In this document: positions 5,151-30,489 of the stretch, one piece after another
Numbering within the stretch: the first letter of the stretch is position 1
How the letters are laid out: every line of letters begins with the position of its first letter
Assembly (NCBI GenBank): GCA_022340845.1
Contig: JAJDNG010000111.1
Coordinates: 1 to 33,204, forward strand
Direction of reading: 5' to 3'
From: Gammaproteobacteria bacterium
GTDB taxonomy: Bacteria; Pseudomonadota; Gammaproteobacteria; SZUA-152
Length of the DNA: 33,204 nucleotides
Program-made: the position numbers and the translations under genes
Notes under the pieces: generated by a model
The model's input: the letters and a program-made list of their open reading frames with translations, nothing else
Database searches by the model: none
Told to the model about the DNA's origin: nothing

Positions 5151-8100
5151 CTACGCAGCTTTCTTCTCGCTCAATAAATCCAAACAGTTATCAACAACAT
5201 CCGCCCGCACCTTGGCATCGGGCATATTTCTGATGATGCGCAATTTATCCTGGCCGTCCATTTTGTATAAGTTGGGCTTGGTCTGAATGAGAGTGATAAC
5301 AGTCATGGGATCGATATTGGGTTGACTGTTGAATATGAAGCGGCCGGATTCGGTGCCGAATTCGATTTTTTTAATGCCCAAGGGTGTGGCTTTGAGTTTC
5401 AATTCGGTGACGCGAAATAAGTTTTTAGTTTGCTCCGGCAGTAAGCCGAATCGGTCTATCATTTCCACCTGCAGCTCACGCAGTTCATCAAAACTCTTGG
5501 CGTTGGCGATGCGTTTGTACATGATCAGGCGGGTGTGAACATCGGGCAAATAATCGTCCGGTATCAGGGCCGATAGCCCTAAGTCCACTTCCGTGCCGTG
5601 CTCCAATGGTTTGTCCAGTTCCGGCTGTTTGCCCGAGCGTAGGGCCTCCACGGCGCGCTCCAGCAAATCCATGTACATGCTAAAGCCGATTTCCTGCATT
5701 TGACCGCTTTGTTCCTCGCCTAGCAATTCACCCGCGCCGCGAATTTCCAGGTCGTGAGTGGCAAGTGTAAATCCCGCCCCCAGGTCTTGAATGGACTCTA
5801 TGGCTTCCAGACGCTTCAAAGCATCCGCCGTCATCGCCTTGCGGGTAGGGACCACAAGATAGGCATACGCCTGATGATGGGATCGCCCGACCCGGCCACG
5901 CAACTGATACAACTGCGCCAGACCGAAGCGGTCGGCGCGGTTCATGATTATGGTATTGGCGTTGGGCACGTCGATACCGGTCTCAATGATGGTGGTGCAA
6001 ACCAGGATATTGAATCGTTGATGATAAAAATCGGCCATGACGCGTTCCAACTCGCGTTCGCGCATCTGCCCGTGGGCGATGGCGATTTTGGCTTCGGGTA
6101 TCAGTGATTCGATTTGTTTGGCCATCTTATCGATGGTATCCACTTCGTTGTGCAAAAAGAACACCTGGCCACCACGACGGATTTCCCGCAAGCAGGCTTC
6201 CTGGATGAGCTGGTCGTTCCAATGGTTGACGAACGTTTTAATGGCCATGCGCCGCGCCGGCGCCGTGGCGATAATGGACAAGTCGCGCAAGCCCGATAAA
6301 GACATATTCAAAGTCCTCGGGATGGGCGTGGCGGTGAGGGTCAGCACATCCACTTCGGAGCGCAATGCCTTGAAGCGTTCTTTTTGCCGCACGCCAAAGC
6401 GGTGTTCTTCATCGATTATGACCAGCCCCAGGCGTTTGAATTTGATGCCTTCCTGAATAAGCTTGTGGGTGCCGATGACGATATCGATGTTGCCGTCCTG
6501 CAAACCGGTGATGACATTGTCTTGTTCTTTTTTGGAACGGAAGCGCGACAGCGATTCAATGCGTACCGGCCAATCCGCGAACCGGTCTTTGAAATTCTCA
6601 AAATGTTGTTGCGCTAATAGCGTGGTGGGCACCAACATGGCCACTTGTTTGCCGTCTTGTACGGCAATAAACGCCGCGCGCATGGCCACTTCGGTTTTAC
6701 CGAAGCCCACATCGCCGCACACCAGCCGGTCCATGGGTTTTTCGGACGTCATGTCTTTAAGCACGCCGTGGATGGCGTCTTCCTGATCCGGGGTTTCTTC
6801 AAACGGAAACGCCGCTGCAAACGCATGGTATTGATCGGTTTCCAGTTTATATTGATAGCCTACGCGGGCTTCCCGGCGGGCGTAGATATCCAACAGTTCT
6901 GCCGCCACATCTCGCACTTGCTCGCGCGCTTTGCGTTTGGCTTTTTCCCATTGGTTGCTGCCCAGTTTGTGCAGCGGCGCGACATCGGGCGAGGCGCCCG
7001 TGTAGCGGCTGATCAAGTGCAGGGAGGCAACCGGTACATACAGTTTGTCGCCTCCGGCGTATTCCAGGGTCAGAAACTCCTGTTCGATGCCGCCCACGTT
7101 GAGCGATTGCAGGCCCAAATAGCGGCCTACGCCGTGATCTTCATGCACCACTGGCGAGCCTTCTTCCAGCTCTACTAAGTTGCGGATAATGAGGTCGGGA
7201 TCGCGCTGTTTAGCGCGGCGCCGGCGCTGTTGTAGTACTTGTTCGCCGAACAACTGAGTTTCAGCAATCACCGCGATGGCTGGATCTTCCAGATATAAGC
7301 CGTTTTGCAACGGTGCTACGGTGATGGCCAGGGTGGTGTCGGACTCAATGAATGCCTGCCAGTTGCTCACCTGGGCCGGTACCAAGTCGCAGCCTTTGAG
7401 GATTTCCAGTAAGGTTTCCCTGCGTCCGGTGGACTCGGCGGCGAACAATATTCTGCCGTCGAACTCCTTGATGAATTGCAGCAGTTTGTCCGTGGGCCTG
7501 GGTGCCCGTGCATCCATGGTCAGCTGTGGAGGTTTGGCGGTGGTGAAATTGAAATAACCCGGTTTGGATTCTTCCAGCTTGAAATTCTGGACGATGACCT
7601 GGGGTGAATCTTTTAGCCGCTGAATAAATTCGCTATGTGGTAGGAACACCTGCTGCGGTTCCAAGATTGGTCTTGCGACATTATATCGGGCTTGTTCATA
7701 ACGGTGGTTGACTTCGTCTCCAAACCGCCTGGCCGCTTCATCGACATCGTTGATTTTTACCAGCACGCTGTTATTGGGCAGGTAATCAAATAGGGAGGCG
7801 GTTTTATCGAAAAACAGCGTCAAGTAATATTCTATACCGGAAGGGGTAATGTTATTACTCACATCCCGGTAAATGCTGCTGGCCTGCGGGTCGCCTTCGA
7901 TGGCGGCGCGGTAATTTTGTCGGAAGCGGCTGATGGATTGTTCGTTAAAAGGAAACTCGCGGGCCGGTAACAAACGAATATGATCGACTTTATCGATGGA
8001 GCGTTGGTTTTCCGGATCAAAGGTGCGGATGCTTTCGAGTTCGTCATCAAAGAGTTCCAGACGATAGGGTTTGGTGCCTCCCATGGGAAACAAATCGATA

Positions 8101-9126: not shown

Positions 9127-11310
9127 CTATAACTGTATTGGCAGGCGTCTGACCGGTTTGCCGGTGGCTGCGAATACGGCATTGGCCACCGCCGGCGCAA
9201 CCGGGGGCACACCAATTTCACCCACGCCACCGGGTGCTTCGGTGTTATTCATCAAATGCACCTCGATAACAGGGCTTTCATGCTGACGTAACAATGGATA
9301 GTCGTGAAAATTACTTTGTTGTACTCGGCCGTCGGCAAAGCTGATGGTTCCGTATAATGCCGCGGTGAGACCATAAATAACGGCGCTTTCCACTTGGGCC
9401 GTGACGATATCGGGATTAACGATGATACCGCAGTCCACAGCACACACCATTTTATGTACCCGCACGGATTGCGCGCCCGGCTTGCCGGTTAATGAGATTT
9501 CCGCTACTTGCGCCACATAGCTGTCGAAGCTGTGCACGATAGCGATACCGCGATGCCTGCCCTCGGGAGGCGGCTCATGCCAACGAGCTTTATCAGCGGC
9601 CAATTGCAGGACCTGCAAATAGCGCGGTTGGTCTTTGAGCAAATACAGACGCAGTTCCAGAGGGTCTTTACCGCCTAATACAGCGATTTCATCCAGAAAT
9701 GATTCTACAATAAAACCATTTTGGGAATGACCCACCGAGCGCCAGAACCCCACCGGTACCGGCGAGGGCGCCATGGCATAGCGCAATTGGAAATTCGGCA
9801 AGGTGTAGGGGAGGTGGGCGGTGCCTTCGATAGAGGTTGGGTCCACACCACGCAATAAGATTGCGGGCAAGGGAACTAAGCGCTTGAGGATAGACTGGCT
9901 AACCATGGCATGACTCCAGGCCACCGGCCAGCCGTCATCATTTACTGCGGCTTGTAACTGGTTATAAGACGCCGGGCGATAAAAATCATGTTGCGTGTCT
10001 TGTTCGCGGGTCCATAGGACTTTGACCGGTTGGTTAACAGTTTTGGCTATTTGCACGGCGTCGGCGACAAAATCCGTTTCCCCACGTCGACCGAAGCCGC
10101 CACCTAAATACGTGGTGTGTACGAAGACTTGGTCTGTCGCCAATCCCGTGATTTTCGCCGCGACCGCCTGGCTGGCGCCTTGTGCCTGGGTAGGCACCCA
10201 AACGTCACAGCGATCGTCCTGAACGTGGGCGGTGCAATTCATGGGTTCCATGCAGGCATGGGCCAGATATGGCGCTTCATAGATTGCGTTTATGCGTTTA
10301 CTACCAGAGGCCAACGCTTTTTCTACGTCACCGATGGTGCGCACGGTTTTAGCGTTGTCCACTTGCGCCTTGAAATCACTATTGATGGATTGCGAACTGA
10401 GTGACGCGTGTTCGCTGGCTTGCCACTGTATTTGCAGGGCTTCGCAGCCTTTTTTGGCGGCCCAGAAATGGCTGGCGACCACGGCAACGCCGGAGTCAAT
10501 GGCGATCACTTCCCGCACCCCCGCGATAGTTTTCGCCGCGCCGGCATCAAAGGATTTGAGCTTGGCGCCCAGCACGGGACTTCTGGCCACGCAGGCGATG
10601 AGCATATCGGGTATTTGCACGTCAATGCCGAAAACAGCTTCGCCCGTGACTTTATGCGGTATATCCAGGCGCGGTTGCGGTTGGCCGATGAGAGTGAATT
10701 GCTGCGGTGATTTTAGTACGACCTTATCGGGAACGTCTAAGGAGGCCGCTTTGTCCACCAGTTCACCGAATCGCAAATGGCGGTCAGTGGCTTTATGCCA
10801 CACAGTACTTTGTCTTGCGGAGCATTCCTGTCGATCGACCTGCCAGGTTAACGCGGCGGCTTGGATGAGCATTTCCCGCGCCGCGGCTCCCGCTTCCCGC
10901 AGGGGTTGCCAAAATCCCCGGATGGATTGGCTGCCACCGGTGAGCTGTCTGCTGTGATTCGGATTGGCAAACGCTTTATGCGCTGGCGCGAATTGGATTT
11001 CAATTTTGTTCCATTGTGCCGCCAACTCCTCGGCAATCAACATAGGCAGTGCCGTTGCGACACCTTGTCCCATTTCCGATGACGGCAACATAATGGTGAC
11101 TTTGTCGTCGGGCGTTATTCGCAGAAATACGCTTGGTAGAAAACCAATGTCGGCAGAAGCTGGATTCTCTGCGGCTATTTTGCGCAGCAACGCTTTTCCC
11201 GAACTGCTCTGGTCGCAACCGCCGATGGCAATGCCTAACAATAATCCACCGCCGGTGGATACTGTACCGGCAACAAACTGACGTCGGGAAAGGTTAACGG
11301 GATTATTCAT
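9127..11310 (-). CDS. Xanthine-oxidase-family molybdopterin-binding subunit, Tat-exported (IorB-like)
   Basis: The 727-residue large subunit of a molybdenum hydroxylase resembles isoquinoline 1-oxidoreductase beta subunits and periplasmic aldehyde dehydrogenases. The N-terminus is a twin-arginine signal (SRRQF at residues 8-12, then a hydrophobic stretch), ending with IGGC at Cys32, so the mature protein may be lipidated. Molybdopterin-contact motifs include [12 protein letters not shown] near residue 405, and the catalytic Glu is in [10 protein letters not shown] (Glu698). Its start overlaps the stop of the upstream [2Fe-2S] gene by 4 bp (ATGA), so the two are translationally coupled. The cytochrome c subunit often found with such enzymes is absent, as are XdhC/MocA-type maturation genes. 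The substrate, an aldehyde or N-heterocycle, cannot be told from sequence. Confidence 0.93.
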
Positions 11311-23998: not shown

Positions 23999-24032
23999 AA
24001 AAAGCGCTCCTGGATCACCAGGAGCGCTTTTT
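23999..24032. terminator. Strong bidirectional intrinsic terminator
   Basis: A 15-bp perfect stem (23999-24013 with 24018-24032) with a 4-nt loop, ATCA. The GC-rich core GCGCTCCTGG is flanked by five A on one side and five T on the other, so it gives a proper U-run on both strands. It sits between the convergent hybrid kinase and PASTA protein genes. Confidence 0.95.
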
Positions 24033-29527: not shown

Positions 29528-30268
29528 ATGCATATTGGTATATTGATTATAGGCGACGAAATACTAAGCGGGCGCCGCCAGGACAAACATTTTGCTCATG
29601 TCATCCAGGTAATGGCGACGCGTGGCCTGGAACTTGAGTGGGTTCGCTATGTGGGTGACGATGATAGTAACCTTGTGCAAAATGTTCGTGAAATTCGCGC
29701 CCAAGGCGATCTTTGTTTTTGTTTCGGCGGCATCGGGGCAACTCCCGATGATAAGACCCGGCAAGCCATCGCAACCGCCCATGGTTTGCCGATTGTCCGA
29801 CATGAAGCCGCTGTCCAAGCGATACAAGCCCAGTTTGGTGATACGGCCTATCCTAATCGAATATTGATGGCCGATTTACCGGCGGGTGCCGAGCTTATCC
29901 CCAATCCCATAAACCGAATACCCGGGTTTTCGCTGGGGAATATCCATTGCTTGCCGGGGTTCCCCGAAATGGCATGGCCGATGTTGGAGTGGGTAATGGA
30001 TCACTATTATCAGGGTCTCGAGGGCAAAGTCACTGTTCAATACCTGGTCACGGTTCACGATGCCCACGAGAGCGAATTAATCGAATTAATGAACGAACTG
30101 CAAACGGCTTTTCCGGAGATCAAACTCTCCAGCCTTCCGAGGTTTTTACCTGGGAATAATCGCGAAATTGAAATGGGTGTAAAAGGGGAAGAACCGGCAG
30201 TAAGTAAAGCATTTGCACGGTTAAAAAAACTGCTGCTAGAGCGTGATTTAAAAGTTACACCAATGTGA
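29528..30268 (+). CDS. CinA N-terminal-domain (molybdopterin-binding-fold) protein
   Basis: A 246-residue protein of the MoCF/CinA N-terminal family (competence/damage-inducible protein A). Motifs include IGILIIGDEILSGRRQDKH at the N-terminus, VRYVGDDDSNLVQ and FCFGGIGATPDDKTRQAIA, the fold's anion-binding loop, and a later PGFSLGNIHCLPGFPEM. Full CinA proteins add a C-terminal nicotinamide-mononucleotide deamidase domain, which is absent, as in the YfaY-type short proteins. The N-terminal domain of some CinA proteins has ADP-ribose pyrophosphatase activity; activity here is not known. No clear ribosome site is seen before ATG 29528. It stands alone downstream of a 16-bp repeat array. Confidence 0.9.
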   Translation: MHIGILIIGDEILSGRRQDKHFAHVIQVMATRGLELEWVRYVGDDDSNLVQNVREIRAQGDLCFCFGGIGATPDDKTRQAIATAHGLPIVRHEAAVQAIQAQFGDTAYPNRILMADLPAGAELIPNPINRIPGFSLGNIHCLPGFPEMAWPMLEWVMDHYYQGLEGKVTVQYLVTVHDAHESELIELMNELQTAFPEIKLSSLPRFLPGNNREIEMGVKGEEPAVSKAFARLKKLLLERDLKVTPM

Positions 30269-30336
30269 AATACCTTCCGGCAGCACGGGAATATTCTTAT
30301 AATTCAGTCAACCAGAGGGTGTCTGGCCAACGGATA

Positions 30337-30386
30337 AAATTAGAGTTAATTTCAAACCTAGATAGGTTTGAAATTAACTCTAATTT
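30337..30386. repeat. 50-bp near-perfect palindrome (24-bp arms, 2-bp centre)
   Basis: The left arm 30337-30360 and right arm 30363-30386 are exact reverse complements over 24 bp, with only GA between them (centre CCTA-GA-TAGG). The arms are AT-rich with no GC clamp and no long T-run follows, which is unlike an ordinary intrinsic terminator, though it lies between convergent genes (CinA-like and cytochrome c). Confidence 0.95.
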
Positions 30387-30489
30387 AAGCCGACAAGGCG
30401 CAGGCGTGAACGATTTCACTACATAGCAATAGTCATCGTCTCAAATCGGCGTCTCTAATCGAAGGGAAAACTCAGCCGACCTTTGCGTT

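Follow-up and report, generated by a model that had tools for sequence, protein, structure and literature searches.

How a DNA palindrome with long, mismatch-free arms comes to lie between the ends of two convergent genes, and whether it serves any purpose there, is the question raised by positions 30337-30386 of the stretch analysed here (the window), which is the whole 33,204-nucleotide contig JAJDNG010000111.1 from a Gammaproteobacteria bacterium (GTDB lineage SZUA-152; assembly GCA_022340845.1). In the draft assembly (3.84 Mb, 289 contigs) the window makes up the entire contig 117. Analogy with a second palindrome in the same genome makes it on balance probable that the window palindrome was perfected or made by replication template switching; it would act at most as a passive two-way transcript-end hairpin.

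Sequence and extent of the palindrome

The palindrome reads AAATTAGAGTTAATTTCAAACCTA-GA-TAGGTTTGAAATTAACTCTAATTT, with all 24 arm pairs matched around a centre of 2 base pairs (bp), as stated in the original prediction. An outward extension that the prediction did not mention brings the arms to 30 bp with two mismatches (30331-30360 against 30363-30392); it holds 28 of 30 pairs over 30331-30392, the six positions beside the core pairing at four of six. The features of the site are as follows.

30337-30360, no strand: left arm of the perfect palindrome, 24 bp (inverted-repeat search)
30361-30362, no strand: 2-bp centre GA; as RNA, a four-base loop after the last pair opens
30363-30386, no strand: right arm of the perfect palindrome, 24 bp (inverted-repeat search)
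30331-30392, no strand: imperfect outward extension, 30-bp arms with two mismatches and CGG/CCG outer ends

Perfect arms of this kind are expected about 2e-9 times in the window (spacer of at most 12, independent bases) and no fold of equal quality turned up in 200 dinucleotide shuffles, in agreement with the claim that the arms are far beyond chance. The GC content of the palindrome is 22%, against 47 and 50% in its flanks. As to the suggested instability in replication, palindromes of 50 bp are well under the size that is unstable in bacteria.

A second palindrome and the case for template switching

Quasi-palindrome correction was reportedly first proposed by Ripley in 1982. Applied to the window, the model would start from an inverted repeat in the convergent gap, at which the growing strand would fold back on itself during replication, one arm being copied from the other before synthesis returned to its proper template; the outcome would be 24 perfect pairs with a few imperfect ones flanking them. 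Such an event could have perfected a pre-existing imperfect hairpin or produced the hairpin in a single step. In the cited portion of a study with E. coli reporters, template switching at imperfect inverted repeats rendered them perfect or more perfect, the example being an 18-bp repeat with a 4-base correction (PMC7202029). An extract concerning yeast genes describes the homogenisation of arms by template switching, with clusters of amino acid changes, and its authors state there that their prior work in Proteobacteria suggests repeated template switching to be common in that group (PMC8604942). New RNA stems can also arise by template switching in one step, according to the relevant part of a further report (PMC8794818).

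Template switching is considered the likeliest cause at the window site because a signature of quasi-palindrome correction is present elsewhere in the same genome. At 10019-10056 of locus L112 (contig 175) lies a perfect palindrome with 18-bp arms, the second long U-poor one in the sampled part of the genome, and it is contained in a small conserved open reading frame (ORF) of 63 codons (9975-10166, minus strand) whose product has no Pfam match. A protein search recovered relatives in 8 of 75 other genomes and, over a broader sample of the class, in 55 of 368. Besides the genome's own entry there were 56 rows, including some with internal stop codons and a second row from one genome; 54 of them reach query residue 55 or beyond, and two stop earlier. 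Of these 54, which extend beyond the palindrome, 51 have exactly one codon more than the study genome, two are of equal length and one has four codons fewer. The region reads HGQxAVDQLIRELxLE or close to it in the relatives and HSQVYVDQLINVNLE in the study genome.

The same difference is apparent in the DNA, where 3 to 8 of 18 positions pair ungapped in five relatives against 18 of 18 in the study genome. When one 3-base gap is allowed, at the best of 19 positions tried and with no chance level computed, the five relatives reach 5, 9, 12, 13 and 7 of 18 pairs; judged on these alignments, only those with 12 and 13 are clear imperfect palindromes, and 5, 7 and 9 may reflect chance. This base-by-base comparison covers five of the eight homolog loci L196-L203, with L201 and L203 left out and L200 diverging past the left arm. 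Since the odd codon is lost and the neighbouring changes all create pairing, the pattern is as arm copying predicts, and L112 is likely to represent a natural template-switch event in coding DNA. Unpaired bases have been removed at L112 as in the lacZ reporters of E. coli used to study quasi-palindrome correction; the window site differs from those reporters in being known in its perfect form alone and in having 24-bp arms instead of an 18-bp repeat. It had been argued that perfect arms imply either recent origin or selection, and the recent-origin part of that argument gains from the analogy with L112.

A perfect 18-bp palindrome inside another ORF (L165, 1653-1691) may be another case of template switching in coding sequence; this ORF reads like the start of what we take to be a DNA methyltransferase.

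Transcript ends and terminator anatomy

Two genes converge on the palindrome, as predicted: their stop codons end at 30268 (plus strand) and 30490 (minus strand), at distances of 68 bp and 103 bp. Neither tRNA nor tmRNA genes were found in the window. The neighbours and the one tail that resembles a U-run are listed below.

29528-30268, plus strand: converging gene 1, protein with a molybdopterin-binding domain (PF00994), 246 aa
30490-31029, minus strand: converging gene 2, cytochrome c (PF00034), 179 aa
30334-30339, minus strand: TTTTAT at the foot of the stem, the sole U-run-like tail (cytochrome c transcript; simple terminator scan)

Folded as RNA, either strand gives a stem of 23 pairs capped by a four-base loop, at -28 kcal/mol. 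If both genes were read to their ends, each transcript would bear this stable hairpin, which would most likely act as a passive two-way transcript end, both as a weak terminator for the cytochrome c strand, by way of its TTTTAT tail, and as a block to 3' exonucleases after Rho-type termination. Rho-dependent termination followed by removal of the 3' end by 3'-to-5' exonucleases is described in the cited part of one report (PMC9927376). Such enzymes should be halted by a strong hairpin. If the palindrome has a function, it is probably that of a weak two-way transcript-end hairpin.

The original prediction held that the site lacks the GC core and U-run of an intrinsic terminator, which is mostly correct: the stem has no GC-rich core, and the best 7-base windows contain four T on the plus and five T on the minus strand, short of the at least six T in seven that define a U-run. 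The exception is the TTTTAT tail, with which the minus strand, and it alone, passes as terminator-like in the simple and laxer terminator scan. The runner-up among the short-spacer inverted repeats of the window, at 23999-24032, is a canonical two-way terminator with 15-bp arms and A and T runs, located between another convergent gene pair. Both elements are placed between converging genes and form a stable hairpin on either strand, whereas the terminator has a GC-rich core and the palindrome has no T-run of six in seven on either strand and longer arms. Hairpin-only, U-less terminators ('I-shaped') have been described for mycobacteria, where they are GC-rich and disputed as terminators; the window palindrome shares with them the position at a gene end and the missing U-run, but it is AU-rich. 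An Rfam RNA family was also considered and dropped, as no match in the window exceeded the gathering score; weak matches to microRNA precursors lay far under the cut-off.

Long perfect hairpins that contain A and T runs lie at the ends of several cytochrome c genes in the family, such as those at L028 (20 pairs) and L040 (23 pairs). In the terminators that follow cytochrome c genes at L018, L027, L028, L030, L031 and L040, perfect pairing extends beyond the A and T runs (for example GCAATAAAAAAGGCCG...CGGCCTTTTTTATTGC), and this extended pairing perhaps stems from the same arm copying.

Long hairpins in the family

The base rate of long hairpins was estimated in 2.38 Mb from six genomes of the family, the window included, with the sampled stretches picked by contig number and a few taken because searches had matched those contigs. 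Gaps were defined by simple longest-ORF calls, leaving ORFs of less than 80 aa uncalled, and gaps of less than 20 or more than 600 bp were excluded. Hairpins with arms of at least 14 bp were found 11 times in 263 convergent gaps, 12 times in 875 tandem gaps and once in 227 divergent gaps, with four in 2.04 Mb of coding sequence; the L112 hairpin is counted as a convergent-gap case in these totals although it lies inside the 63-aa ORF, and the tests were redone without it. With both the window palindrome and L112 removed, convergent gaps still exceed divergent ones (9 of 263 against 1 of 227, P = 0.02), and U-poor hairpins of at least 11 bp number 17 in convergent and 3 in divergent gaps (P = 0.005). 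Long hairpins in this family are typically placed at gene ends. In the cited portion of a survey of E. coli, inverted repeats of at least 8 bp with short spacers were clustered at gene ends, mostly as parts of terminators, and the genome was poor in those of at least 13 bp (PMC6060812).

Some of the long hairpins are dispersed repeats, with further copies in the sample at five places for L160, two for L070 and one for L081. The L160 case (5967-6040) is a 74-bp hairpin repeat whose five further places are in the sampled part of its own genome, and it is likely to be a miniature element of its genus. Alike hairpins also occur in two genera of the family, at L124 (6511-6550) and L174 (588-615), with the pattern ACCACC.GCT..AGC.GGTGGT; these may resemble end hairpins of the IS200/IS605 type.

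Weighing the explanations

Several observations weigh against an origin by template switching combined with a passive role at transcript ends. In folding with the core, the real flanks have only a slight advantage over shuffled ones, since 8 to 59 of 500 shuffles, depending on flank length and strand, do as well. No orthologous junction of the two genes was found among 56 relatives, so that an earlier state of the site is unseen. The L112 palindrome is not fully accounted for by one copying event in one direction, since its left arm has changed as well, from AA or EA in the relatives to VY; earlier substitutions or copying both ways would be needed. As to the transcript ends, the terminator tails of the palindrome are weak, scoring 3.0 and 3.2 when the stem is taken to end at its last GC pair; the 23999-24032 terminator scores 4.6 and 6.0. 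No similar hairpin is present within 300 bp downstream of the cytochrome c gene in its three best full-length matches (L013, L014 and L026), so the window hairpin is no conserved feature of this gene. The proposal that the palindrome is a transcript end for two convergent genes is plausible and agrees with the preference of long hairpins for convergent gaps, but for U-poor hairpins of at least 14 bp, with the two study cases removed, the difference is not significant (4 of 263 convergent against 1 of 227 divergent, P = 0.38), the numbers of this kind being too small.

That a two-way transcript-end hairpin was kept perfect through selection alone is possible, though we regard it as doubtful. 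Selection on both transcripts would favour an exact complement, because any G-U pair in one transcript would be an A-C mismatch in the other. The convergent position and the equal stability of the hairpin on both strands accord with this, as does the fact that the other clear hairpin of the window (23999-24032) is a two-way terminator, likewise perfect and likewise between convergent genes. The absence of G-U pairs adds little: they account for some 5% of the pairs in the stems of Bacillus cereus terminators, as given in the cited part of one study (PMC5381666), so that 24 pairs without any are unremarkable in themselves. The site is nevertheless poor as a terminator, both in GC content and in its tails, its 24 pairs far exceed what termination needs, and the three cytochrome c matches have no counterpart. 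Selection and template switching may both have been at work. A bolder variant, to which we attach little weight, is that template switching is a steady source of transcript-end hairpins in the family: one event would yield a perfect U-poor palindrome between convergent genes, the double-stranded RNA ends of the two messages would be put to use (for example by RNase III or as an exonuclease stop), and only afterwards would mutation and selection shape them into ordinary terminators.

The remaining explanations are a mobile element, an artefact, and a telomere-resolution site or long operator. The low GC content relative to the flanks, and the finding that some long hairpins of the family, such as L160, are dispersed repeats, would suit a relic of a small mobile element or of a pair of abutting transposon ends. 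However, the palindrome occurs at one place in its own genome, also when up to three mismatches are allowed in a 19-base arm, and the 264 bases around it have no match in the 56 other genomes searched. A plasmid search gave no match, and a phage search gave partial matches only (E 0.6 to 8), on which grounds a phage or plasmid origin was dropped. The exact 19-base arm has one occurrence in the genome collection and one in the viral collection, each a single arm (L010 and L011). No target-site duplication is obvious at the ends of the palindrome, as judged by eye only. Repetitive extragenic palindromic (REP) sequences, miniature inverted-repeat transposable elements (MITEs) and similar elements are likewise palindromic and intergenic, but the window palindrome is single-copy and no relatives of it were found. 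The earlier suggestion of a recent element is not supported by copy number, and a mobile origin is unlikely. An artefact of assembly or library preparation, conceivable in a draft genome of 289 contigs, is improbable, as the flanks are different and gene-bearing on each side, and a fold-back join should continue as an inverted copy where the flanks here diverge after 24 to 30 bp. Telomere-resolution sites are perfect palindromes of about this size, but no catalytic domain of the ResT/TelK type (PF16684) was detected at E 0.001 in the genome, which is 91.6% complete. The neighbours are ordinary, and the palindrome lies between gene ends, not promoters, which also speaks against a long operator; a telomere-resolution site is unlikely, and the two possibilities taken together are scarcely credible.

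Significance and further observations

Viewed in isolation, the palindrome is just another perfect inverted repeat where genes end; it is probably a neat illustration of an established process and no new kind of element. Together with L112, it marks a mutational process: short pieces of this genome seem to have been rewritten by template switching, in the conserved protein of L112 as a one-codon deletion accompanied by a cluster of substitutions. Such events are easily mistaken for fast adaptive change or for mobile elements, and perfect palindromes offer a simple way to find them.

The gene with the molybdopterin-binding domain is matched in 3 of 23 other genomes searched. The left-flank pattern gave scattered matches only, with two or three mismatches, and the right-flank pattern was found, among four genomes, at this site alone. 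To the left of the palindrome, 25 bp at 30282-30306 (AGCACGGGAATATTCTTATAATTCA) recur at 92% in the same genome (contig 60, 19611-19635), where a similar GCACGGGAATA follows 44 bp further on; this is perhaps a promoter-like or repeat motif.
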